A DNA stretch of 64,000 nt from Chloroflexota bacterium (GCA_016234445.1 JACRBT010000009.1:1-64000), one strand, 5' to 3'. Counted from the first letter of the stretch, positions 47,790 to 63,597 are shown. The notes: generated by a model not told the origin, from the sequence alone. Program-made: numbers and translations.

Positions 47790-49367
47790 ATGCACATCAC
47801 TGACCACCGGTTGGGGGGTCCTCGCCAGAACCGCTATCACCTCATCAACGACCTCCCGTCGGACGACCTCTGCAGCAGCCAGAGTTGGCGCCAGTGGAAA
47901 CTCAAGCTGAACCGGGTTGAGCAGGAGCTATACCTCCACTTCCGCCAGACTCAGGCCCCCGACGGGATCCGCATCAGCCTGAACCGCATCTCTAAGAAGT
48001 TGGACTGCGGATCAAACCAGGTAACCCTGGCCATCTGGGAGCTCGCGGCGAAAGGATTTCTCCAGGTCGAGACAGACGACAACGCGTTGATCCTCTACGT
48101 CGAGCCAGTCCCCCACGGGGCGAAGTCGCTCATGGACAGCGACTTTCGTGGTCAGAGCATGACCCTCGTCGCCGCCTTCGATCGCCCTGAACTGGCCCCG
48201 CACGAGCGGGCGTACACTTACCTGAAGTTCTCCCACGACCCCCAGACCGCAGCCCTTTACCTCTACCTCCGTCAGCGCGCGAGGCCGGGGGACGGTGTTC
48301 GGGTCACGAAGGACTCGATCATCGATCACTTCAACAGCAACCCTTGGGCAATCAGCGTCAGGCTCGCCAAGCTCGAAGCCGAGCGGTTCATCGGACGCCG
48401 TCCGAACCAGGGGGTGATGGCCGTCAGGCCAGTCCCTGCGAGTGAGGGGGACGAGGTGCCCGACGTGAGTGCCAACGACGTCGAAGCGTTCTTCCAGGGT
48501 CCCGCTGCCATCCCGGTGCCGGCGATGAGGCTCGTGAGTAACGTCTCCACGAAGTCCATGGCCCAGCGCCTGGTCGGCTTCTTCAACGACTGCCTCAGCG
48601 CCAAGGGCCTCGCGGTTCAGGTAGGAATGAACAGGTGGACCCAGTCCGACGCGGACCTGCTGCTCAGTCACCACACCTTTGCTGAGCTCGCTCCGCGGGC
48701 CGTCTTCTTCATCGACCAGTTCAACCACGAGAGCGTCGAGAACTACGGCCGCACCTTCCGCACCTTCAGGATGCAGCTCGCCGTCGTGGGCGAACAGTTG
48801 GCGGCTCACTGGCACAACAACCACGACGGCTGGGTTGAGAGGACCCTGACGTCATGGGGCCTGGCCGAAAAGTACCCTGGGATCACCTTCAACCCTCTCT
48901 CGTTCGAACAGCAGCAGGACAAGGCTGTCCATGAGGTCGTCGCCCAGCTCGATCAGGAACTCCTCGCCATCTGCTTCGCCGGGGTTCCGGAAGAGGTTGA
49001 AGACTGGACTGAAGTTCGGCCCGAGACCGTCCCCGCTGACGAGAAGACGCTGCGGGCTGCACATGGGCCTGCGGGCTCCTTCGCCCACACCCGGGGGGAG
49101 ATCCGCCGGATCGCCATCGCCAACCAGGTGACCCGCTACCTTACGCTGAGAGCGGAAGAGGAACTTGCCGACCTCGGCGCCCTCCGTAGCGATGTGACCC
49201 CTGAGAAGTACGAGGCTGCCTTCGCCGCTGGGCTTGAGCTGGCTAAGCACCGCTTCAGCAGGGTCGTCAATGCACTCATCCGGCACGCCGATGAGCTGGC
49301 CCACATCCCCCTCGTCGCCGAGATCATCGAGACCTACCGTCCCGGTGGGCAGGCTGTCGCCGCGTGA
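47790..49367 (+). CDS. Replication initiator/helicase-loader-like protein
   Basis: The 525-residue protein starts at the ATG at 47790 with AGAAAGGAA upstream; the frame extends 19 codons further. Two winged-helix-like segments are visible in the first 230 residues (ISLNRISKKLDCGSNQVTLA and VTKDSIIDHFNSNPWAISVR), each in the context of a repeated LYLxxRQ pattern, as in RepA/DnaD-like initiators. The rest is helical and unrecognised. Its stop overlaps the start of a DnaB-type helicase gene by 4 nt. It probably binds origin DNA or loads the helicase. It resembles no family closely enough to name. Confidence 0.65.
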   Translation: MHITDHRLGGPRQNRYHLINDLPSDDLCSSQSWRQWKLKLNRVEQELYLHFRQTQAPDGIRISLNRISKKLDCGSNQVTLAIWELAAKGFLQVETDDNALILYVEPVPHGAKSLMDSDFRGQSMTLVAAFDRPELAPHERAYTYLKFSHDPQTAALYLYLRQRARPGDGVRVTKDSIIDHFNSNPWAISVRLAKLEAERFIGRRPNQGVMAVRPVPASEGDEVPDVSANDVEAFFQGPAAIPVPAMRLVSNVSTKSMAQRLVGFFNDCLSAKGLAVQVGMNRWTQSDADLLLSHHTFAELAPRAVFFIDQFNHESVENYGRTFRTFRMQLAVVGEQLAAHWHNNHDGWVERTLTSWGLAEKYPGITFNPLSFEQQQDKAVHEVVAQLDQELLAICFAGVPEEVEDWTEVRPETVPADEKTLRAAHGPAGSFAHTRGEIRRIAIANQVTRYLTLRAEEELADLGALRSDVTPEKYEAAFAAGLELAKHRFSRVVNALIRHADELAHIPLVAEIIETYRPGGQAVAA

Positions 49368-50680
49368 GCACCAAAGCAGAGATCAAGCGCGACGACAAGA
49401 ACCTCGGATCATATATCTTCTGGCTCGCCACCCACCATGAAGACTTCATCAAGAAGTACGTCGACCGTATCCACCCCGAGACTTGGGAGTCCGACGAGCA
49501 AGCATGGCTCCTTGAAGAGACCGTCAAGTACTTCAAGAAGCACCACAAGCTCATCCCCGAGGAAGTTCTCTTAATCCTCCTCGCCGCGAAGAAGGTCAGC
49601 CCACGGTTCGACAAGGAAACCGTGGTCGAACTCTACAAGAAGGGCGGGCCGCGGGAGGAAGTCATCCCCTGGGTCATGGACGATGCCGCTGAATACTTCA
49701 AGCGCCGGGACATCCGCGAAGTTCTGAGTGAGGCTGTCGAAACGGTCTCGTCCGGCAGCCCTGATGACGTCGTCCAGGCGCTCAACAAGGGTGTGCGCGA
49801 ACTCAACCGCACCCCAGACGATGGCAGGCGTTTCGAGCTCAGGGTCAACCAGGACCTCGGGCCTATCTGGGAGGAGATCGGGCGGGAGTACATCGTCGAC
49901 GAGCGTGCCGCCAGCACCGGAATCCCGGATGTCGACAGCATCCTCGGTGGGGGCCTCCGGCCCGGGGAGCTGGGAGTGGTCCTCGCTCCCCCGGGGCGGG
50001 GGAAATCCCACTGGCTCATCCACTGCGCGAGGACGGCCTGGTGGAAGAACCGTAACGTCGCCTTCTACAGCTTCGAAATGAGCGAGGGCCGGGTCTTCGC
50101 CCGGTTTCTTGCCGGCGCGACTGGGATCGGGGCCAACGAGATCGACTCCCAGCGGGCCAGGGCGGACAAACGGTTGACTCAAAAGGCCCGGAAGGCAGGC
50201 GTCGATGCCGGCTTCTTCGTGAGGCGGTTCGGGGACAACGAGGCGACCGTCAGTGACATCTACAACGACATCGCGTCTCTCCAAGACGAGGGAAACGACA
50301 TCGGCCTGGTGGTCATCGACTACGGAGACATCATCCGGCCAGAAGTCCGGTCCGCACGCGGCCGCGTTGACGACCAGGCCGAGATCTACAAGGCCCTCCG
50401 CGGTATGGCCGTCTCGCTCGATGTGCCCGTGTGGACGGCGTCCCAGGCGAACCGTGACTCCCTTCGCAAGAGCAGCTTCGGCCTCGAGAACGTCGCCGAC
50501 AGCTTCGACAAGGTGAAGATCGCCGACTACGTCATCGCCCTCTGCCAGGACGGCACCGAGAAGACCGCGGGGAGGATGCGTCTCGCCTTCGCCAAGTCTC
50601 GCAACAACGGCCAGGGGGAAGAGATTCTCGTGTACGCCGAGCTCGACAAGGCCTTCTTCAGGGAGCACGACGGGGTATGA
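49364..50680 (+). CDS. DnaB-type replicative helicase of a mobile element
   Basis: The 438-residue protein starts at a GTG overlapping the previous stop. Residues 1-130 form a helical N-terminal domain. A RecA-like ATPase follows: TGIPDVDSILGGGLRPGEL, Walker A APPGRGKSHW (about 210), YSFEMSEGRV, Walker B DIGLVVIDYGDII and WTASQANR, which is the DnaB/phage gp41-type signature. It unwinds DNA for replication. It is distinct in sequence from chromosomal DnaB and sits in a coupled operon with a primase. Confidence 0.88.
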   Translation: MSTKAEIKRDDKNLGSYIFWLATHHEDFIKKYVDRIHPETWESDEQAWLLEETVKYFKKHHKLIPEEVLLILLAAKKVSPRFDKETVVELYKKGGPREEVIPWVMDDAAEYFKRRDIREVLSEAVETVSSGSPDDVVQALNKGVRELNRTPDDGRRFELRVNQDLGPIWEEIGREYIVDERAASTGIPDVDSILGGGLRPGELGVVLAPPGRGKSHWLIHCARTAWWKNRNVAFYSFEMSEGRVFARFLAGATGIGANEIDSQRARADKRLTQKARKAGVDAGFFVRRFGDNEATVSDIYNDIASLQDEGNDIGLVVIDYGDIIRPEVRSARGRVDDQAEIYKALRGMAVSLDVPVWTASQANRDSLRKSSFGLENVADSFDKVKIADYVIALCQDGTEKTAGRMRLAFAKSRNNGQGEEILVYAELDKAFFREHDGV

Positions 50681-51636
50681 GCGTCCTCACCCAGAACATC
50701 CACCGCTTCGACATCGTCGCTTTCCTCCGCAGCAAACACGAAACGGTCGAGGAGACCTCGACAGAAGTCTACATCGACTGCCCGTTCTGCGGGGGAAAGA
50801 AGAAGCTCTACTGCAACAAGCTGACGAAGAAGTGGATCTGTTTCAAGTGCTCTGAGCGTGGCGACCTGGTCGACTTCATCGAGAAGTACTCAGGGGTGGA
50901 CTCGATCGCCGCGATCAAGTTGATCGTCCAAAACGCCGGGCGCCGGCGTCGGCTGCTCCTCGAGGAGTCGGACGAGGTCGACACAGCGACCGAGCACATG
51001 ATCGGCTGGCCGACCCACTACAAGCCCCTCACCTACCCGCGGGTGAAGGAGAACCGGCGCTATTGGAAGTACGTGACGCAGACCCGCGGCCTGCCCTACT
51101 CCACCGTCCTCGACTACAAGCTCGGCTACTGCCCGATCGGGAAGTACCGGAACCGGATCATCGTCCCGGTGATGTGGTTCGGGGAGCTGGTGAGTTGGGT
51201 GGCTCGGTCGCTCTCCGACGATGTTGAGCGGACCAAGCTGACCCCGTACGGGAACAAGCAGTCTGACTACCTCCTCAACCTCGACCGGCTCTGGGGCCAG
51301 GACGAGGTGGTCCTCGTCGAGGGCCCCTTCGACATGCTCAAGCTGCCGCACCAGGCCGTGGCGAGCTTCGGGAAGCGCCTGAGCCATCGGCAGTTGACCC
51401 TCCTTCGCCGCGCCGGGGTGCGGCGCGTCGTTGTTGGTTACGACAACGACGCGATGGCTGAGACCTTGGCGACCGCGAAACGCCTCAGTGAGCACTTCGA
51501 GGTGGCAGTGGTGGAGATGCCCGACGGAGAGGACCCGGGCAGCCTCCCGGACGCCGTCCTCAAGGACCTGATCAACCACGCCGCCCCTTACGACCCCTAC
51601 TTCCATCTTCGCTTCAAATTGGAGGCCGCCTTTTGA
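50677..51636 (+). CDS. DnaG-like primase
   Basis: The 319-residue protein overlaps the helicase stop (ATGA). A zinc-binding CHC2-type domain comes first (CPFCGGKKKLYCNKL .. WICFKCSERGD), then a primase core with a TOPRIM domain: VVLVEGPFDMLKL and RRVVVGYDNDAM supply the acidic residues. It is shorter than DnaG because the helicase-interaction domain is missing. Together with the helicase it forms a self-contained priming and unwinding pair, as in phages and large plasmids. Confidence 0.88.
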   Translation: MSVLTQNIHRFDIVAFLRSKHETVEETSTEVYIDCPFCGGKKKLYCNKLTKKWICFKCSERGDLVDFIEKYSGVDSIAAIKLIVQNAGRRRRLLLEESDEVDTATEHMIGWPTHYKPLTYPRVKENRRYWKYVTQTRGLPYSTVLDYKLGYCPIGKYRNRIIVPVMWFGELVSWVARSLSDDVERTKLTPYGNKQSDYLLNLDRLWGQDEVVLVEGPFDMLKLPHQAVASFGKRLSHRQLTLLRRAGVRRVVVGYDNDAMAETLATAKRLSEHFEVAVVEMPDGEDPGSLPDAVLKDLINHAAPYDPYFHLRFKLEAAF

Positions 51637-53436: not shown

Positions 53437-53632
53437 CGCCGGAGTTCCAGCTCCTGGGCGATGCGAAGGAGACGCGTCGTCGCCGCAACATGTCAAACGA
53501 GACTGGCGACCTTTGGACCCTTAGTTGGGGCCATGTGGGCCGGGGTCAGCCCCTGACGGGGCGTGCTAGGCTCTGCGCGGAGCCGTGTGCACCGCAGAGA
53601 CGACGCCGACCGAAAGTCACCTCAGGCCGCGA

Positions 53633-54586
53633 GTGAGCGCCGGCCGGGGTTCGAGGCCCTGGCGCTGGACGCTTGCCGTCGTCCTGGTTGGCTGGTGGCT
53701 GATCACTGCGGTGGCGTGCGGTGCGGCCAGGGTCGACATCGACTTCGAACAGCCAGAGTCATCACCGCCGCCGGCGATGGTCGGGTCGCAGGTGGCCCCG
53801 CTGCGGATTGCGGTGGCGCCGGTGCTCTCGGCGCGGCCCACGTCCTCGCTCTATCAGCAGCTCGCGACCTACGTCGGCGCGAAGCTCGGCCGGCCGGTGG
53901 AACTGGTCCAGGGCAAGACCTACGCGGAGATCAATGACCTCCTCAAGTCGGGCGAAGTGACGGTCGCCATCGTCTGTACCAACCCGTACCTCCAGGGGCG
54001 GGATGACTTCGGCATGGAGCTGATCGCGGCCCCCCAGGTCGGTGGCGACGTTGTCTACTACTCGTTCCTGATCGTGAACCGGAACTCGACTGCCACGTCG
54101 CTCAGCGACCTCCGCGGCACGAGTTTTGCGTTCACCGACCCGCTCTCGAACTCCGGGAGGCTGGCCCCTATCTACCAGCTTGCGCTCCGGGGACGGAACC
54201 CGGATTCGTACTTCAGCCAGACGATCTTCACCTACTCCCACGACAGTTCCATCCGGGCGGTCGCCGATGGCGTGGTCAACGCCGCCGCCGTCGACAGCCT
54301 GGTGTACGACTACCTGGCAGCGAACGAGCCGGCGTTGACGGAGAAGGTGCGCGTGATTGAGCAGTGGGGACCGTTCGGGATCAACCCGGTGGTGGTGAAC
54401 CCCCACCTCGACCCGGCGCTGAAGCAGGAGCTCCAGGGCGTCTTCCTGGGCATGGACCACGACCCGGAAGGGTTGGTCATCCTGCGCAACCTCTTCCTGG
54501 ACCGGTTCGTGGTGCCCGCCGACAGCGTCTACGACAGCGTCCGGGAGATGCGAACGTTCCTCCGCGAACGGGGGCTTGGACCCTGA
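53633..54586 (+). CDS. PhnD-like periplasmic-binding lipoprotein, sensor partner
   Basis: The product has 317 residues from the GTG at 53633; the frame stays open to a GTG at 53585. The lipoprotein signal ends LITAVACG. The mature part is a phosphonate-binding PhnD/TtrS-type fold: LRIAVAPVLSARPTSSLY, VELVQGKTYAEINDLLKSGEVTVAIVCTNPY, SLSDLRGTSFAFTDPLSNSG and DGVVNAAAVDSLVYDYL. It is followed without a gap by a histidine kinase gene (1-nt overlap). In Salmonella TtrS the same domain is fused to the kinase; AioX and relatives are separate like this one. It probably binds the substrate oxyanion outside the membrane. Confidence 0.82.
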   Translation: MSAGRGSRPWRWTLAVVLVGWWLITAVACGAARVDIDFEQPESSPPPAMVGSQVAPLRIAVAPVLSARPTSSLYQQLATYVGAKLGRPVELVQGKTYAEINDLLKSGEVTVAIVCTNPYLQGRDDFGMELIAAPQVGGDVVYYSFLIVNRNSTATSLSDLRGTSFAFTDPLSNSGRLAPIYQLALRGRNPDSYFSQTIFTYSHDSSIRAVADGVVNAAAVDSLVYDYLAANEPALTEKVRVIEQWGPFGINPVVVNPHLDPALKQELQGVFLGMDHDPEGLVILRNLFLDRFVVPADSVYDSVREMRTFLRERGLGP

Positions 54587-56007
54587 TGAGGGGCATGCTC
54601 GTGAGGCGGCCGCTCAGTCTCCGGCAGAAGATGGTGCTTGCGATGGGCGGATTGGTGCTCGTCCTGGGACTGGCCGGCACCATCCACGCGCGGCTGACCC
54701 TCTCCAATATCTCGAACGACGAACTCGACCGGCGTGCCCTGGCCATCAGCCGCGGGCTGGAGAGTCCGGCCACCGAACTGCTCCTGACGAATGACATCTT
54801 CGGACTCTACCTTCGAGTCAACGAGATCACGGCGACAAACGCCGACGTGCGGTATGTGGTCGTGTTCGATTCTTCGGGCGACGTCCGCGCCAGCTCGTTC
54901 GCCGCGGGCCTCCCGGCGGGCTTGCGGTCTTCGAACCCGGTGCAGACGAGTGATCCCTACTCGTTGACAACGCTAGAGAGCAGCGAGGGATCGGTGCGCG
55001 ACCTTGCCTACCCGATCCAGGGCGGCCGGGTTGGCCTGATACGGCTGGGGCTGACGAAGAAGCCCATTGAGAGCCGTGTCGACAGGCTCACCTTTAATCT
55101 CCTGGGCCTCACGGGGCTCGCGCTCGCCGGCGGATTGGCGGCGAGTTACTTCCTGGGAACGGTGCTCACTCGGCCACTGTCCGGACTGGCTGCGGCAGCC
55201 CGCGCGGCCGGCCGCGGAGAATCGGCTCCCCAACACGAGCTGTACGCCCATCCTGAGGTCGGCCAGGTGGCAGTGGCCTTCGACAACATGACCCGGGAAC
55301 TGCGGGAACGCGACGAAGAGCGGACCCAGCTACTCGCGAAGGTAATGACAGCCCAGGAAGACGAGCGCCGGCGCATCTCCCGGGAGCTCCACGACGAAGC
55401 AGGCCAGGCGCTGACGTCGCTACTCCTCGGGCTCACCCACCTGGAGCAGTCGGTTGCCGAAGACGACGCCCGGGCACTCCTGGCGGAACTTCGCGTGATG
55501 ACGACGGAGGCCATGGATCTGACCCGGAACCTGGCCCGGGAGCTGCGCCCGAGCGTCCTCGACGACCTGGGGCTCGAAGCCGCCGTGGGACGGTACGTAG
55601 CCGACTACGGGAAGAAGCAGCGCCTGGACACCGACTTCCACTCAGGCGGATTCGGGGTGACCCGGCTCAGGCCCGAGACGGAGACGGCACTCTACCGAAT
55701 AGCCCAGGAGGCGCTCACCAACGTCGCGCGTCACGCGGGCGCATCGAGCGTCAACGTCCTCCTTGAGCGGCGGGACGGCAAGGCGGTCCTCGTGGTCGAG
55801 GACGATGGGTGCGGTTTCGACGTTTCCGTGGTCCGCGGTTCCGGGTCACCTTCCGCCAAGCTGGGGCTGCTGGGGATGGAGGAGCGGGCATCACTGGTAG
55901 GCGGTACGCTCGCGGTTGAGTCGCGGCCCGGCTCGGGCACCGCGATATTCGTCGAAGTCCCGATCGACGGAGGGGCGGATGAGCGCGACGCGCATCCTGA
56001 TAGCTGA
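54586..56007 (+). CDS. NarX-type sensor histidine kinase
   Basis: The 473-residue protein has TM1 at about 13-33, an outer domain of about 120 residues, TM2 at about 160-183 and HAMP at 184-237. A HisKA_3 domain follows with the phosphorylated His in EDERRRISRELHDEAGQ (about 269), then HATPase with NVARHAGAS, EDDGCGFDV and GLLGMEERA. It is coupled to the PhnD-like lipoprotein upstream and overlaps the response-regulator gene by 29 nt. I infer that it reads ligand-bound lipoprotein and phosphorylates the regulator. Confidence 0.92.
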   Translation: MRGMLVRRPLSLRQKMVLAMGGLVLVLGLAGTIHARLTLSNISNDELDRRALAISRGLESPATELLLTNDIFGLYLRVNEITATNADVRYVVVFDSSGDVRASSFAAGLPAGLRSSNPVQTSDPYSLTTLESSEGSVRDLAYPIQGGRVGLIRLGLTKKPIESRVDRLTFNLLGLTGLALAGGLAASYFLGTVLTRPLSGLAAAARAAGRGESAPQHELYAHPEVGQVAVAFDNMTRELRERDEERTQLLAKVMTAQEDERRRISRELHDEAGQALTSLLLGLTHLEQSVAEDDARALLAELRVMTTEAMDLTRNLARELRPSVLDDLGLEAAVGRYVADYGKKQRLDTDFHSGGFGVTRLRPETETALYRIAQEALTNVARHAGASSVNVLLERRDGKAVLVVEDDGCGFDVSVVRGSGSPSAKLGLLGMEERASLVGGTLAVESRPGSGTAIFVEVPIDGGADERDAHPDS

Positions 56008-56635
56008 CGACCACGCCGTGGTCCGCTCCGGGTTGCGCCTGATCCTGGGGGCGGAACCGGACTTCGAGCTCGTTGGGGAGGCTGCCACCGGCGACGAGGC
56101 CGTGCGGGAAGTAGAGCGCCTCCGGCCCGACATCCTCGTCCTCGACATCGCGATGCCCGGGATGAACGGGCTCGACGCGGCCCGAGTGATCAGGACCGCG
56201 GCCCCCGAGGTCCGGATCGTAATTCTGACGATGCACGACGACGAGGCCTACTTGAAGGAGTTCCTGGAGATCGGCGCGGCCGGATATGTCCTGAAACAGG
56301 CGGCCGACACCGAGCTCGTCCAGGCTATCCGGGCCGTCCAGCGGGGCGAGCCGTTCATCTACCCGGCGATGACCCGCCAGCTCATCGACATCTTCTTGAA
56401 GCAATCGCATCCAGCGCCGGCGCCACCGGCGGCGGACGCCGAGCTGTCCCCGCGGGAGACCGAGGTGGTGCGGCTGGTTGCCCTGGGGTACAGCGGCCAG
56501 CAGATCGCGGACCAGCTCTCGATCAGCGTCAGCACCGTCGAGACGCATCGAGCCCACGTGATGGAAAAACTGAAGCTGCACGGGCGCGCGCAGCTGGTCA
56601 GATACGCGCTCAGCAAGGGACTGCTCGATACTTGA
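55979..56635 (+). CDS. NarL/LuxR-family response regulator
   Basis: The 218-residue protein has a receiver domain with acidic residues ILIADDHAV, the phosphoacceptor Asp in LVLDIAMPGMNG (about 56) and a conserved Lys in YVLKQAAD. It ends in a LuxR-type HTH: SPRETEVVRLVALGYSGQQI and TVETHRAHVMEKLKL. It overlaps the kinase gene. The adjacent fhl-like oxidoreductase genes begin 254 nt downstream and are its likely target. Confidence 0.94.
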   Translation: MSATRILIADDHAVVRSGLRLILGAEPDFELVGEAATGDEAVREVERLRPDILVLDIAMPGMNGLDAARVIRTAAPEVRIVILTMHDDEAYLKEFLEIGAAGYVLKQAADTELVQAIRAVQRGEPFIYPAMTRQLIDIFLKQSHPAPAPPAADAELSPRETEVVRLVALGYSGQQIADQLSISVSTVETHRAHVMEKLKLHGRAQLVRYALSKGLLDT

Positions 56636-56663
56636 GCCCTCGATCCGGGCGCCCGCCGGGCCG

Positions 56664-56687
56664 GGCATCGTGGAAATCCACGATGCC
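56664..56687. promoter_or_regulatory. Perfect 11-bp inverted repeat after the regulator gene
   Basis: GGCATCGTGGA and TCCACGATGCC are separated by AA. It lies 29 nt after the regulator's stop codon. It may be a terminator, although it has no T tract, or an operator for the oxidoreductase operon. Confidence 0.5.
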
Positions 56688-56826
56688 GAGGCGCGAAGAA
56701 GCCGGGCAATCCACGACCTCATTTGCGTCTCTCGGCCCATGCCTCTGGCCCACCGTGCGCGGGATGCTGCCACCGTAGCGCCGCCCCGCCATGTCCCTAA
56801 TCCCGGCGGCGTCCAGGGGTGACCGT

Positions 56827-56841
56827 GAAGTCTGACACTTC
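56827..56841. promoter_or_regulatory. Candidate regulator site before the oxidoreductase operon
   Basis: GAAGT-CTGAC-ACTTC is a small perfect inverted repeat 49 bp before the start of the Fe-S subunit gene. A NarL-type regulator encoded next door could bind here; the evidence is weak. Confidence 0.3.
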
Positions 56842-56889
56842 CCAGTCCGGGTCGTTGCCAGCCACCGCGCTGGCGAACGGAGGGCATCC

Positions 56890-57738
56890 ATGACCGCACC
56901 AACAGAGACCGCCCACCCGGCCGACGAGCTACTCCCGGCGCCGGACACGCGCGCCCGGCGAGAGGTGCTCGACTGGCTGTTCAAGATCGGGGCCGGGTCG
57001 CTCGCTGTCGCCATTGGCACGGGAAGCGGACTCGCGCCGCTGGTTTCGGCGGTGGCGGGCGATGAGACGAAGCGGAAGTTCCGCTACGGCATGGTCATCG
57101 ACACCCGGCGATGCGTCGGCTGCCGGGCCTGCGTGGTGGCTTGCAAGGCCGAGAACAAGACGCCACCCGGCGTCTCCTACACGGTCGTGGTCGAAAACGG
57201 CTTCGGGGAGCGGCCCGACGATCGCCCTCTCTTCCTGACGAAACCCTGCTTTCACTGCGACGAACCGCCCTGCGTTTCCGTCTGCCCCGTAGGGGCCACT
57301 TTCAAGAGGAAGCAGGACGGCATCGTCGTCGTCGACTACGAACGCTGCATCGGTTGCCGCTACTGCATCGTCGCCTGCCCCTACCAGGCCCGCTACTTCG
57401 ACTTCGGCGAAGACTACGCCGCCACCGAGGAAAACACCCCCTACGCCGAGATGCCGTCGCCGGAGTACCGCCAGTTCCGGACGCGCCAGGCCGACGAATC
57501 ACCGATCGGCAACGTCCGCAAGTGCACGTTCTGTTTGCACCTGCAGGACGCGGAGGGCAAGTACGACAAGTCCGCCGGGCGCTGGCCGGCCTGCGCCAAG
57601 ACGTGCACCGGCAAGGCGATCCACTTCGGCGACTTCAACGACCCTGAGAGCGAGGTCTCACGGCTCCTTTCCGAAAGGCAGGCCATTCGCCTGAAGGAAG
57701 AGCTGGGGACCGAGCCGAACGTTTACTACCTGCTTTAA
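56890..57738 (+). CDS. DMSO-reductase-family Fe-S electron-transfer subunit
   Basis: The 282-residue protein has a hydrophobic N-terminal segment (about 33-55) that may act as a signal anchor. Four 4Fe-4S cluster motifs follow: CVGCRACVVACK, CFHCDEPPCVSVCPVG, CIGCRYCIVACPYQ and the split CTFCLHL .. CAKTC set. This is the layout of TtrB, PsrB and DmsB. It passes electrons between the quinol subunit and the catalytic subunit. GGAGGG precedes the ATG. It is the first gene of the three-gene operon. Confidence 0.92.
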   Translation: MTAPTETAHPADELLPAPDTRARREVLDWLFKIGAGSLAVAIGTGSGLAPLVSAVAGDETKRKFRYGMVIDTRRCVGCRACVVACKAENKTPPGVSYTVVVENGFGERPDDRPLFLTKPCFHCDEPPCVSVCPVGATFKRKQDGIVVVDYERCIGCRYCIVACPYQARYFDFGEDYAATEENTPYAEMPSPEYRQFRTRQADESPIGNVRKCTFCLHLQDAEGKYDKSAGRWPACAKTCTGKAIHFGDFNDPESEVSRLLSERQAIRLKEELGTEPNVYYLL

Positions 57739-57750
57739 GGAGATGCCGGC

Positions 57751-59004
57751 ATGTCGGACAAGACAATAAAGACCTCGTTCTGGGTCGCCGGGATCGCCCT
57801 GATCCTGGTAGGCGCCTGGGCCTGGTTCGACCGCTGGGCCAACGCCCATGAGAACACTAACTACGGGAGCATCGTCCCGTGGGGGCTCTGGGTCGCGGCC
57901 TACATCTACTTCATCGGCCTGAGCGCGGGGTCGTTCCTCGTCTCCTCGCTCGTCTACGTCTTCCAGATCAAGCGATTCGAGAAGGTGGGCCGGCTCGCGT
58001 TGTTCACAGCGGTGGTCACCCTGATCCTCGCGTTGCTCGCTATTTCGGCCGACCTCGGCCACACGTTCCGGTCCTGGCACGTGATGGTGTATCCAAACTT
58101 CAAGTCGCCGATGGCATGGATGATCTGGCTCTACACGGCCTACTTCATTCTCGTCGTGCTCGAACTCTGGTTCGTTCTTCGCCAAGACCTCGTGGTCGGA
58201 GCGAAAGCCCAGGGTGCCCGAGCCAGGCTCTACCGGATCCTGGTCTTCGGGAGCAAGGACGACTCGCCAGCGATGCGGGCCAGCGACAAGCAGATCGTCC
58301 GCATCCTGGCAACGGTCGGCGTACCCCTGGCTATCATGTTCCACGGAGGCGTCGGTTCACTCTTCGGCGTCGTGGCCTCACGCCCGGCATGGCACGGCGG
58401 ACTCTTCCCGATCCTCTTCCTGGTCTCCGCCCTTGCCAGCGGCGGCGCCCTCCTGGTCGTCGTCAGCGCCATCTTCCAGGACGGTCTCCGGCGAAACCGG
58501 GACACCGTCGTGGCACTCGGGTCGCTGGTCCTGGCGCTCCTCCTTGTCGATGTCCTCTTCCAGGTCTCAGAGACACTCGTCGGGTTCTATGGCAACTCGC
58601 CCGACAAGATCGAGAACCTCAAGCTGGTCTACGCCGGGCCTTACTGGTGGGTGACCTGGATCTGGCAGCTCGGCATCGGAACCCTCGTCCCGATTGCCAT
58701 CCTCGCCCTTCCAACAAGGAAAGACCCGCGCGCCGTCACCGCGGCCTGCGCCCTCATCGCCGGCGGCTTCCTGGCGGTCCGGCTCAACATCGTCATCCCT
58801 GGTCTGGCTGTCGAAGAAGTCAAAGGTCTCACCGACGCCTTCGACTCGGCCCGCCTCGACACCAACTACGTCCCGAGCGCCATGGAATGGATCTTCAGTG
58901 TGGGACTCTTGGGTATCGGGCTGGTGATGTTCGGCATCGGCGAGTGGCTGCTGCCCAGGGAAACCGAACCCGCACCTGAGGAGGCCTCACATGTCGCAGC
59001 CTGA
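57751..59004 (+). CDS. NrfD/PsrC-type membrane quinol-oxidising subunit
   Basis: The 417-residue polytopic protein has about nine or ten hydrophobic segments. IVPWGLWVAAYIYFIGLSAG matches the NrfD opening, ISADLGHTFRSWHVM and WMIWLYTAYFILVV the core helices, and LLPRETEPAPEEASH the tail. It anchors the complex and oxidises menaquinol. AAGGAG precedes its ATG. Its end overlaps the start of the catalytic-subunit gene by 14 nt. Length is slightly above that of typical TtrC and PsrC. Confidence 0.9.
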   Translation: MSDKTIKTSFWVAGIALILVGAWAWFDRWANAHENTNYGSIVPWGLWVAAYIYFIGLSAGSFLVSSLVYVFQIKRFEKVGRLALFTAVVTLILALLAISADLGHTFRSWHVMVYPNFKSPMAWMIWLYTAYFILVVLELWFVLRQDLVVGAKAQGARARLYRILVFGSKDDSPAMRASDKQIVRILATVGVPLAIMFHGGVGSLFGVVASRPAWHGGLFPILFLVSALASGGALLVVVSAIFQDGLRRNRDTVVALGSLVLALLLVDVLFQVSETLVGFYGNSPDKIENLKLVYAGPYWWVTWIWQLGIGTLVPIAILALPTRKDPRAVTAACALIAGGFLAVRLNIVIPGLAVEEVKGLTDAFDSARLDTNYVPSAMEWIFSVGLLGIGLVMFGIGEWLLPRETEPAPEEASHVAA

Positions 59005-61546
59005 CGCAAAGCAAATCGGACGCCGCCGCCTTCTCAAGCTTGGCGGCGGGGCGGCAGCCGGGGTGGCAGCAGCGGCGGTGGTCTCCGGTGTCGGCACCCG
59101 TTCGGGCGAGCACACGATCAAGGCGAACGCTGCGGGGCTCGACCGCTGGGGCCGCCAGGCCGGCCAGTGGATCCCAAGTTGCTGCAACATGTGCGGCGGC
59201 CAGTGCGGGATCATGGTCCACGTCGTCAACGGTGTCGTCGAGAAGATCGAGCCGAACAACTGGAACCCGAACAACTACACCAACATCTCTTCCGACTGGG
59301 CCGACGGCTACACGGTGGAGCAGGGCTGCAAGGAAGGCGCAACCATCTGCCCGAAGGGCAACGCCGGCATCATGTCCCTGTACGACCCGGACCGCCTGAA
59401 GACTCCCTTGAGGCGGACCAACCCGGACAAGTCAGTCGGCGCCGACCCGAAGTGGCAGGAAATCTCTTGGGACCAGGCGCTCGACGAGATCGCGGCCAAG
59501 ATGAAGACGCTGCGTGACGGCGGCGAGGCCCACAAGCTGGTCTGGTTCAGCGAAGACCATTCCTTCACGCACCCGCAACAGGACTTCTGCGCCCTCTACG
59601 GTACGCCGAACTATTCCAACCATGCGAACCTCTGCGACGTCTCGCGCAAGGCCTCGTTCAAGTCGGTGTTGGGTGACGAGCGGCCGCTCGCCGACTTCAT
59701 CGAGTCCAGGTACATCATGCTCTTCGGGTGGAACCCCACGTCGGCGATCAAGTGGGTGCACCTGCCGCGCATCATCACCCGTGCCATCGAGAATGGCGCC
59801 CGGATGGTCGTCGTGGACCCATACATGTCCGACACCGCCGCCAAAGCCCAGGAGTGGGTCCCGATCCGGCCGTCGACCGACGGGGCGTTTGCCCTGGCGC
59901 TCGCGCACGTCATCATCCGCGACAACCTCTACGACAAGGACTTCGTGGAGAAGTGGACGGTCGGCTTCGACCAGTTCTCCGCCTTCGTAAAGGACAAGAC
60001 CCCACAATGGGCCGAGGGCATCACGACTGTGAAGGCCGCGACGATCGAGCGCCTGGCGAAGGAGCTCGCGACCACGAAGCCGGCGCTGGTGGACGTGTGG
60101 AGCGGTCCCGGACAGCACTCGAACGGTGTTCAGGGCGGCCGGGCGGTCGCCATCCTGAACGCGCTGATCGGGACAATCGACAAGCCCGGCGGCATGATGA
60201 ACCCGAACCGGGGCGGAGGGAAGTGGACGCAGGCCTCGCCTGACGACACCGCCGCGGCCACCCTCAAGAACGAGCGCATGGACCTGAAGACGACTGACGG
60301 CAACGTGTACCCGTTGCGCCATGGGTCCGGGGTCTATCCCCAGTCGTTCCTCAATATCATCGAAGGGAAGCCCTACGACGCCAAGATGGGGGTATTCGTT
60401 TTCCAGAACGTGATGATGTCCGTACCCGGCAACCAGAAGGTCGCGCAGGCGCTGGCCAAGCTGGAGACGGTTGTGGTGATCGACACGATGCTCAGCGAGA
60501 CCGCGATGCTCGCCGACTACGCGCTCCCCGGCACGGTGTACCTGGAGCGATACGACGTCAACGGCCACTGGGTCACCTGGCCCGTGGTTGGGCTGCGTCA
60601 GCCCGTCGTCAAGCCGATCTTCGGCCAGCCGGCGGAGTACGAAATCGTCGCCGCGCTGGGACGGCGCCTGGGGCTGAAAGACAAGTCCGGGAAGGACTTC
60701 TTCAAAGTTGGCGCGATCTCGGGCCAGCCAATCGAAGACCTCACGGCATGGTACGAAGAGCAGCTCTCCAACGAACTCAAGAACGGCAGCCCGGGCCTCA
60801 CGCTGGACGAGATGAAGAAGCTCCCCGGCGCGGTCTGGGTCGACAAGAAGGGGACGGCCTATCAGAAGTACGCGGCCGCCCTCTCCGCCGACGCCCTGAA
60901 GACGGCGTTCTACGATGGCGACCCGGCGAAGGACGGGACCCTCGTCTACGACAAGGACAAGGCGGCCGGCGGCGCGGTCATCGGTGTCGTCATCGGCGGC
61001 AAGGCCACCAAGGGCTTCGCGACGCCCAGCCGGAAGGTCGAGCTCTACGCGAAGGGGCTCGAGACGAAGAAAGGTGCCACCGGCAAGGCGGTCAACCCGC
61101 TCCCGGTGTATGAGCCGCGCGATTGGCAGCCGTCGGAGGAGTTCCCGCTCTACCTGATCAACTGGAAGGAGGCGAACCACACCCACACCCGCACCCAGAA
61201 CAACTCGTGGCTGCTGGAGATCAAACCCTTCGGGCCGCTCGTCATCCACCCTGATACCGCGAAGAAGTACGGGGTCGGCGACGACGACTACGTGTGGGTG
61301 GAATCGCCCCACGGGAAAGTGAAAGCGCGGATCAAGGTGTCGCGCCGGATGCACCCCGAGGTCGTTGGCTTGCAGCACGGCTGGGGACACACCGCCCTTG
61401 GAGAGAACGCGACCGGTCGCCGGATCATCTCGGGCCAGCGCGTCCACCGCGGGGCCTCCGATGCGGCCCTCCGGCCGACGAAGGCCGATCCCTTGTCGGG
61501 GCAGGCCCTGCACAAGGAGGCCTGCGTCAAGATCTCTAAGGCGTAG
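58991..61546 (+). CDS. Tat-exported molybdopterin oxidoreductase catalytic subunit
   Basis: The 851-residue protein begins with a Tat signal (GRRRLLKLGGG). A [4Fe-4S] site of CNMCGGQC plus a distant Cys in ICPKGNAG follows, with an unusually long linker rich in Asn. Molybdopterin segments include SLYDPDRLKTPLRR and WQEISWDQALDEIA. The Mo ligand is probably the Cys in NLCDVSRKASFK (about 215). LPGTVYLERYDVNG and a C-terminal HPDTAKKYGVGDDDYVWVES domain complete it. It belongs to the Psr/Phs/Ttr/Arr group of the DMSO reductase superfamily. Length fits ArrA- or PsrA-like enzymes better than TtrA (about 1000 residues). Substrate undetermined. Confidence 0.88.
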   Translation: MSQPDAKQIGRRRLLKLGGGAAAGVAAAAVVSGVGTRSGEHTIKANAAGLDRWGRQAGQWIPSCCNMCGGQCGIMVHVVNGVVEKIEPNNWNPNNYTNISSDWADGYTVEQGCKEGATICPKGNAGIMSLYDPDRLKTPLRRTNPDKSVGADPKWQEISWDQALDEIAAKMKTLRDGGEAHKLVWFSEDHSFTHPQQDFCALYGTPNYSNHANLCDVSRKASFKSVLGDERPLADFIESRYIMLFGWNPTSAIKWVHLPRIITRAIENGARMVVVDPYMSDTAAKAQEWVPIRPSTDGAFALALAHVIIRDNLYDKDFVEKWTVGFDQFSAFVKDKTPQWAEGITTVKAATIERLAKELATTKPALVDVWSGPGQHSNGVQGGRAVAILNALIGTIDKPGGMMNPNRGGGKWTQASPDDTAAATLKNERMDLKTTDGNVYPLRHGSGVYPQSFLNIIEGKPYDAKMGVFVFQNVMMSVPGNQKVAQALAKLETVVVIDTMLSETAMLADYALPGTVYLERYDVNGHWVTWPVVGLRQPVVKPIFGQPAEYEIVAALGRRLGLKDKSGKDFFKVGAISGQPIEDLTAWYEEQLSNELKNGSPGLTLDEMKKLPGAVWVDKKGTAYQKYAAALSADALKTAFYDGDPAKDGTLVYDKDKAAGGAVIGVVIGGKATKGFATPSRKVELYAKGLETKKGATGKAVNPLPVYEPRDWQPSEEFPLYLINWKEANHTHTRTQNNSWLLEIKPFGPLVIHPDTAKKYGVGDDDYVWVESPHGKVKARIKVSRRMHPEVVGLQHGWGHTALGENATGRRIISGQRVHRGASDAALRPTKADPLSGQALHKEACVKISKA

Positions 61547-62394: not shown

Positions 62395-63597
62395 TTAGGG
62401 CAGGCTCTCGCATACGACTCCGTCGTCGTCGGCGTCGAGCGCGTTCACATCGGTCGGGTCGTAGGTGTTGTGGAACCACTGGGCGTGGGCCTGGGTCGTG
62501 AAGTTGGAGCAGTTGCAGGTGTTCTGACCGGCCGAGTAGCAAGCCGGGAGGGAATAGCCCCCACCGGTGGTTGGCGTGGCCGTCGGGATGGGGGTGTTCG
62601 TCGTGGTCGGCGTGGCCGCCCCCGGCGTTGTAGGGGTTGACGTAGGCGTGTGTGTCAGCGTCGCCCCACCGCCCGGCACCACGGAGAAGCTGTAGGTCGC
62701 GCAGTCGCTGGTCATAATCACCGAGTCGTCGCCGGCCGTCGTGTCGGTGTAGCGAAGGGAAGCGCCGACTGCGGACAGGCTGGCGAGCGTCTCCGCGTGC
62801 GGGTGCCCGTACTGGTTGTTGAGGCCCGCGCTGATCACCGCCACCTCCGGGTCCAGCGCCTGGAGGAAGGCGAGGGAGCTGGAGGAGTTCGAGCCGTGGT
62901 GGCCGACCTTGAGCACGTTCACGTCGCGCACCACCCCGGCCGTGAGCATGGAGGTCTCTGAGGCCGTCTCCGCGTCCCCGGTGAAGAGCACGTCCACGGA
63001 GCCGCAGGTCAGCTGGAGGACGATCGAGTCCACGTTGCTGTCGCCGGAGAGGGAAGGCGGGTGGAGCACCGGGATCTGCAGCCCACCGAGGGGGACGTTC
63101 TGGCCGCGACGAAGGGTGACGACCGACGCCCCTTCCACGTTCACAGCGGCGATGAAGGTGTCCCAGGTGGCGGTGTCGCTCGTGTCGCCGTTGAGGTAGA
63201 TGCGCTCCACCTTGAACATCCCCAGCACCTGGGCGAGCCCGCCGATGTGGTCTGCGTCCGGGTGGGTGGCGACGATGGCGTCGAGGTCGGTAATGCCGAG
63301 GGTCTGGAGCCGGGCCTTGATGGTGGTGCCGCTCCTGCCCCCGTCGATGAGGAGACGCTGGCCGTTGACGGTGATGAGGGTAGCGTCCCCCTGCCCGACA
63401 TCGATGACGACGATCTGGAAGGACGAGACCGGGGAGCTGCCGGGGGAGTCGGCGGCGAGGGCCGGGACAACGGCCCGGTGGGGGAGGGCGCCATCGGCTC
63501 CTTCGGCCGAGTTGCGGAAGAGGGAAGCGGCGGCGACGGCTCCCAAGAGCATGCCGGTAAGGGCGAGGATGGCCGCAAGTCGACGTGGGGACGCCAT
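62395..63597 (-). CDS. Secreted ComEC-like metallo-beta-lactamase-fold hydrolase with Excalibur domain
   Basis: The product has 400 residues from the ATG at 63597; the frame extends upstream to 63963 but without a credible start. A signal peptide (about 1-45) precedes a ComEC/Rec2-type MBL domain: FQIVVIDVGQGDATLI, LLIDGGRSG, THPDADHIGGL (the HxHxDH-like motif as THPDADH), FTGDAE and LKVGHHGSN. A Thr-Pro linker and an Excalibur tail (CNCSNFTTQAHAQWF, NALDADDDGVVCES) follow. ComEC MBL domains degrade one DNA strand during uptake, and secreted stand-alone versions are probably extracellular nucleases. No ComEC channel domain is present. Confidence 0.85.
   Translation of the reverse strand: MASPRRLAAILALTGMLLGAVAAASLFRNSAEGADGALPHRAVVPALAADSPGSSPVSSFQIVVIDVGQGDATLITVNGQRLLIDGGRSGTTIKARLQTLGITDLDAIVATHPDADHIGGLAQVLGMFKVERIYLNGDTSDTATWDTFIAAVNVEGASVVTLRRGQNVPLGGLQIPVLHPPSLSGDSNVDSIVLQLTCGSVDVLFTGDAETASETSMLTAGVVRDVNVLKVGHHGSNSSSSLAFLQALDPEVAVISAGLNNQYGHPHAETLASLSAVGASLRYTDTTAGDDSVIMTSDCATYSFSVVPGGGATLTHTPTSTPTTPGAATPTTTNTPIPTATPTTGGGYSLPACYSAGQNTCNCSNFTTQAHAQWFHNTYDPTDVNALDADDDGVVCESLP

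Follow-up and report, generated by a model that had tools for sequence, protein, structure and literature searches.

What does a bacterium sense, and what does it respire, with a molybdoenzyme operon whose sensor is encoded apart from its kinase? The question is raised by a cluster of six genes, X-S-R-B-C-A, in the 64,000-nucleotide stretch of Chloroflexota DNA analyzed here (the window). An earlier note, made from the sequence alone, had taken the cluster for a Ttr-like locus with a split sensor, perhaps acting on an unusual sulfur, selenium, or arsenic oxyanion. The evidence assembled below makes it probable instead that the cluster encodes an arsenate-induced, quinol-linked respiratory arsenate reductase of a non-Arr kind together with its sensor; substrate, direction, and induction are all predicted from sequence.

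Layout and setting of the cluster

The six genes lie on the plus strand in one tight co-directional cluster, 53585-61546, and all of their frames are open (Table 1). Profile searches of the encoded proteins against Pfam and NCBIfam bear out the order that had been read by eye: PhnD-like protein, kinase, NarL regulator, Fe–S protein, NrfD protein, and molybdopterin subunit. X is a Phosphonate-bd protein (PF12974, 2.8e-60) of the PhnD fold, and the sole PF12974 protein of the host genome. S is a membrane sensor histidine kinase. R combines Response_reg (1.7e-29) and GerE (1.8e-19) domains in the NarL/FixJ arrangement, without an AAA+ domain; it matches the NarL-class models of NCBIfam and falls far under the cut-off of the TtrR model. 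B is a 4Fe-4S subunit of the DsrO/NrfC/TtrB-like kind, and C is an NrfD protein (PF03916, 3.5e-48) that presumably carries the quinol site. A contains Molybdop_Fe4S4, Molybdopterin, and Molydop_binding domains.

Table 1. Genes of the cluster and motifs of the catalytic subunit A, in window coordinates
Feature	Position	Strand	Details
X	53585-54586	+	333 aa; 1-nt overlap with S
S	54586-56007	+	473 aa; HAMP + HisKA_3 + HATPase_c
R	about 55979-56635	+	about 218 aa; overlaps S; start set at an internal ATG
B	56890-57738	+	282 aa; 254-nt gap separates R and B
C	57751-59004	+	417 aa
A	58991-61546	+	851 aa; 14-nt overlap with C
Tat twin arginine of A, R11 R12	59021-59026	+	Arg in 76/80 and 72/80 members
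FS0 [4Fe-4S] site of A, C64 C65 xx C68 xxx C72 ... C120	59180-59350	+	from sequence
Active-site motif of A, H211-xxx-C215-xxxx-K220	59621-59650	+	H211 and C215 in 80/80 members; K220 in 78/80

The host is a Chloroflexota genome of 3.5 Mb, and the nearest named relative of A comes from the heat-loving Tepidiforma. Another genus within the family has the XSR-BCA order as well, at 69-82% identity (L036/L115), so that the arrangement is not due to chance. Two close relatives (L039, L040) carry BCA without XSR. No ars genes adjoin the operon, as judged by a similarity search of the window and by inspection of the rest of the contig. A family-by-family search of the host genome gave no match to Acr3 or to pI258-type ArsC, and a single ArsM that exceeds its NCBIfam cut-off and is encoded at a distance from the operon (L195, 6005-6856, contig C2).

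Upstream of the cluster, at 49364-51636, a DnaB-like helicase stands next to a CHC2/Toprim primase, a pair of the phage or integrated-element kind. Downstream, on the minus strand at 62395-63591, is a protein with a ComEC-like metallo-beta-lactamase domain and an Excalibur domain at its end. Farther along the same contig, past the window (L196, 7659-16664), open frames of TIR-like, caspase-like, tyrosine recombinase, QueC-like, and serine-recombinase-like character follow one another, as judged by eye; together they may constitute a defence island or mobile element.

The sensor and its signalling partners

The claim that the sensor is a separate, AioX-like protein has held up: X and S are distinct genes, and the lipobox-like ITAVAC of X, with its cysteine at position 45, makes a lipoprotein plausible. 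Among solved structures the best match to X is ArrX (6x6b, 7.3e-51), followed by AioX (6esk, 1.3e-37), with PtxB and PhnD far behind both. The AioX pocket is formed by Tyr88, Cys106, Tyr131, Ser161, Ser163, His192, and Asp210, which are retained in ArxX and ArrX; ArrX binds arsenate with a Kd of 1 uM and phosphate weakly, and does not bind arsenite, tetrathionate, thiosulfate, or selenate (Badilla et al. 2018, PMC5908839). All seven residues (Y, C, Y, S, S, H, D) are present in the X of the window. The full pocket recurs in nearly all X proteins encoded beside A-family genes, from about 10 phyla, with Thr often in place of Ser163 and a single Asp210 to Glu exchange.

Pocket residues by themselves cannot tell arsenate from arsenite binding. 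In a midpoint-rooted tree, the X proteins of the A family fall with ArrX on one side, and AioX falls with the X of the Cereibacter arx cluster, presumed to be ArxX, on the other (100/100). At the putative signalling loop most A-family X proteins have the ArrX-like ISPxxT; the X of the window has LSARPTS. Pocket, tree grouping, and structure matches together point to a sensor of the arsenic kind. X would thus be an ArrX-type arsenic-oxyanion binding protein, with arsenate as the better guess for its ligand. The sensor domains of two TtrS proteins (L180 and L182), which are fused to the kinase, have none of the seven residues. Two A-family loci depart from the usual form of X, with two tandem PhnD-like domains in one open frame (L097, 2325-4055; L099, 2530-4443).

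The sensing arrangement had been thought to cross two known systems. Split X-S-R sets beside arsenic molybdoenzymes were in fact already published (PMC5908839, PMC5492636): a separate X is encoded in aioXSR, arxXSR, and arrXSR (Badilla et al. 2018, PMC5908839), and an 'ArrTSR' set lies upstream of a Ttr-type enzyme in Melioribacter roseus (PMC5492636). The combination is therefore not new. ArrXSR-ArrAB of Chrysiogenes arsenatis and its relatives shares with the cluster the separate PhnD-fold sensor with the same pocket, the separate kinase, and an adjoining Cys-type MopB; its regulator also resembles R, since in Firmicutes and Chrysiogenetes ArrR has no AAA+ domain (Badilla et al. 2018, PMC5908839). 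It differs in the order of the enzyme genes, AB there and BCA here, and in the clade of the catalytic subunit. ArxXSR-ArxB'ABCD likewise joins X-S-R to an NrfD-anchored MopB, with TorD and ars genes on the Cereibacter plasmid, but its X is of the AioX side, its regulator in the published systems is an AAA+ protein, and its A belongs to the ArxA/ArrA clade.

Outside the arsenic systems, ttrSR-ttrBCA has the same gene order, PhnD-fold sensing, and BCA set; its sensor is fused to the kinase, however, all of the pocket residues differ, and TtrA, with open frames of about 1035-1090 aa, belongs to another clade. PsrABC and PhsABC offer the same subunit types and the nearest named clade of A, but are ordered A-B-C and lack XSR, and PsrA is without the His/Lys motif around the Mo-Cys. 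A further arrangement is found on plasmid pAZKH of Azoarcus sp. KH32C (L178), where an XSR set with an X of the AioX/ArxX side is divergent from B-C-A genes; its different, long-branched MopB is another candidate arsenic enzyme.

The catalytic subunit and its relatives

The description of A as a non-TtrA protein of 851 residues, with an Asn-rich linker before the fourth cluster Cys, is accurate in every part, whereas the designation of the locus as Ttr-like is as little supported by A as by the sensor. The nearest named model is PhsA (NF012032), which A matches with 381 bits against a cut-off of 694; the scores for ArrA (NF041714) and TtrA (NF011567) are 250 and 116 bits, with cut-offs of 1600 and 1750. 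A tree of 33 sequences places the A family in a clade of its own, outside ArrA/ArxA, TtrA, and PsrA/PhsA (100/100, bootstrap/SH-aLRT), and a larger tree of 70 sequences also recovers one A-family clade, likewise apart from these (SH-aLRT 99). The ArrA/ArxA clade, too, has 100/100 support. A does not, then, group inside a known family that has the same split sensor. By sequence and by tree it is closer to PsrA/PhsA than to ArrA; PsrA/PhsA is at best the sister of the A clade, as in the 33-sequence tree (98/98), the named families compared being ArrA, ArxA, TtrA, PsrA, and PhsA. SrdA and archaeal arsenate reductase have been placed with TtrA, and SrrA with PsrA (Wells et al. 2020).

The surroundings of the presumed Mo ligand, C215, recall ArrA. 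A Lys five residues after the Mo-Cys is found in the A family, in ArrA, and in most ArxA, and is absent from TtrA, PsrA, and PhsA. In the alignment, H211 and K220 fall on the His and Lys that ArrA has around its Mo-Cys, and we take ArrA His189, Mo-Cys193, and Lys198 to be the counterparts of H211, C215, and K220. ArrA Arg165 and Tyr210, presumably substrate residues in the ArrA structure, are not kept; the aligned residues are D189 and R231, the latter invariant among the 80 members, and the pocket of A thus differs from that of ArrA. An AlphaFold2 model of A (pLDDT 85, pTM 0.87) has ArrA as its best match in the PDB (6cz7, 5e-53), with the polysulfide reductase PsrA next.

The Asn-rich stretch, EPNNWNPNNYTNIS, lies between C72 and C120 and is largely common to the A family. 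The FS0 site is more variable. The third Cys (C72) is replaced by Ser in 35 and by Thr in 26 of 80 members, usually together with a doubled Cys at positions 64-65, and six members (L088, L089, L112, L096, L097, and L099) retain Cys at just three of the five positions.

A scan of GTDB contigs found the A family in 79 contigs, from MAGs labelled to >20 phyla and from the isolate Stygiobacter electus, the one cultured carrier found; because the carriers are nearly all MAGs, some of the phylum labels may be wrong. A match at 1e-80 occurs in 8 of 400 Chloroflexota genomes, and this patchy occurrence suggests transfer. A literature search that covered few subscription journals found no paper naming the clade, and an earlier naming is possible. 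Unnamed Cys-coordinating MopB lineages, with AH-like and Psr/Phs-like best matches, have been reported in MAG trees (Wells et al. 2023, PMC10100899) and may include the A clade; its passages on these lineages describe neither an operon nor a sensor. A putative arsenate reductase was proposed on similar grounds in 2016 for a single cell of marine Dehalococcoidia (PMC4959651). As judged from its sequence, the new part of the cluster is A itself, a distinct unnamed clade.

Genomic associations and proposed function

The neighbours of A were surveyed in 81 A-family loci (1.14 Mb), many of which end at contig ends. Genes similar to the B and C of the window lie near A in 73 and 51 of these, and X, TorD, and MoaA in 18 each. 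Acr3 is found in 8 loci, ArsC in 6, and ArsM in 3, with at least one of the three in 13; roughly 0.4 Acr3 genes would be expected by chance, an estimate that assumes one copy per 3 Mb genome. Example Acr3, ArsM, and ArsR-type neighbours score above their NCBIfam cut-offs, and the example ArsC scores below (134 vs 174 bits). A gene for a BBP2-type outer-membrane porin is present near the operon, mostly just upstream, in 14 loci (L116, 744-1847, and 13 others), in organisms expected to have outer membranes.

An exchange of enzymes at a common locus is seen in Melioribacteraceae. We infer that one of the genomes (G457) is Melioribacter roseus; its molybdoenzymes lie at 1.25 and 2.07 Mb, where MROS_1076 and MROS_1774 are expected. 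The locus that it shares with two relatives, G455 and G465, consists of X, S, a sigma-54 regulator, a porin, BCA, a CMD protein, and Moa genes, with ArsC and Acr3 also present in G457 and G455. Flanking genes are mostly 54-90% identical across the three genomes: between M. roseus and its relatives, identity is 84% for Acr3, 80% for ArsC, 54-70% for X, 66-69% for S, 74-76% for the regulator, 67-71% for the porin, and 68-87% for the downstream genes. Within the cassette it drops to 48% for B, 32% for C, and 24% for A. The A proteins of G455 and G465 are 91% identical to each other and belong to the present A family.

With flanks conserved and B, C, and A divergent, the same XSR arsenic locus evidently serves either BCA cassette; the X-S-R arsenic switch is thus modular and can combine with different enzymes. 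The M. roseus locus (MROS_1069-1076) resembles the cluster of the window in having X, S, and a regulator followed by B, C, and A, and it is an ars locus; it differs in its TtrA-type A and in its regulator, sigma-54 type there and NarL type here. MROS_1076 was considered as a member of the A family and rejected, since G457 has a TtrA-type A in that place. M. roseus is an arsenate respirer, and an auxiliary role was assigned to its Ttr-type enzyme (PMC5492636). Transcripts of both molybdoenzymes rise with arsenate; the change is statistically clear for psrA/phsA alone, that of ttrA not being significant.

Several other functions have been weighed. An Arx-like arsenite oxidase, in which X senses arsenite and ABC passes electrons from arsenite to the quinone pool, would have subunit types identical to those found here, the same sensor pocket, and, in most ArxA, the Lys at C+5. 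It is nevertheless unlikely, given the grouping of X with ArrX apart from AioX and the presumed ArxX, the ArrX-type loop of most X proteins, the lack in R of the AAA+ domain of AioR and ArxR, and the origin of the M. roseus locus in an arsenate respirer. The standing of PhsA as nearest named model and of PsrA/PhsA as nearest named clade would suit a reductase of polysulfide, thiosulfate, or another sulfur or selenium oxyanion under arsenic control, or one acting on thioarsenates. Against this are the unmet PhsA cut-off, the separate clade, the absence of the C+5 Lys from PsrA and PhsA, and sensors with an arsenic pocket, and we consider such a function quite improbable. Of the substrates first suggested, arsenic remains a candidate, and sulfur and selenium oxyanions are now less likely than arsenate.

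Detoxification of arsenic or redox homeostasis, rather than respiration, might be proposed from the ars genes near A in other genomes and from the auxiliary role given to the M. roseus Ttr-type enzyme. Export of the enzyme by Tat and its pairing with an NrfD membrane subunit are typical of the build of respiratory complexes, however, and reduction in the periplasm would presumably leave the cytoplasm unprotected, which makes this explanation very improbable. A split-sensor tetrathionate system, for which the Ttr-like order of regulators and BCA would speak, is scarcely credible in view of the low TtrA score, the position of A outside the TtrA clade (100/100), and two TtrS sensor domains that lack all seven pocket residues.

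The favored function, arsenate respiration under arsenate control, sets a predicted ligand, substrate, direction, electron flow, and regulation beside the observed domains, gene order, clade, pocket, ars association, and cassette swap. Arsenate would bind X in the periplasm, and the loaded sensor would act on the kinase where S extends into the periplasm; R would then be phosphorylated by S and turn on the adjacent BCA operon. A would be a Tat-exported molybdenum-bisPGD reductase, receiving electrons from quinol through the NrfD-type C and the Fe–S subunit B and reducing arsenate, as terminal electron acceptor, to arsenite.

The broader proposition is that A represents one more, unnamed family of molybdoenzymes for respiration with arsenic oxyanions. 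This family would be independent of Arr, Arx, Aio, and Ttr, would have been transferred across >20 mostly uncultured phyla, and would escape detection by arrA/arxA markers, while ArrX-type sensing would be a portable element coupled to several unrelated enzymes; the chances for and against it seem evenly balanced. Arsenate respiration is surveyed by arrA models and primers. If the A clade does reduce arsenate, Omnitrophota, Armatimonadota, Latescibacterota, Nitrospirota, Chloroflexota, and others would have been overlooked as releasers of arsenic in groundwater and hot springs, and arsenic respiration may exceed what current marker genes reveal. The modularity of X-S-R would also mean that the substrates of unassigned molybdoenzymes can be guessed from their sensor.
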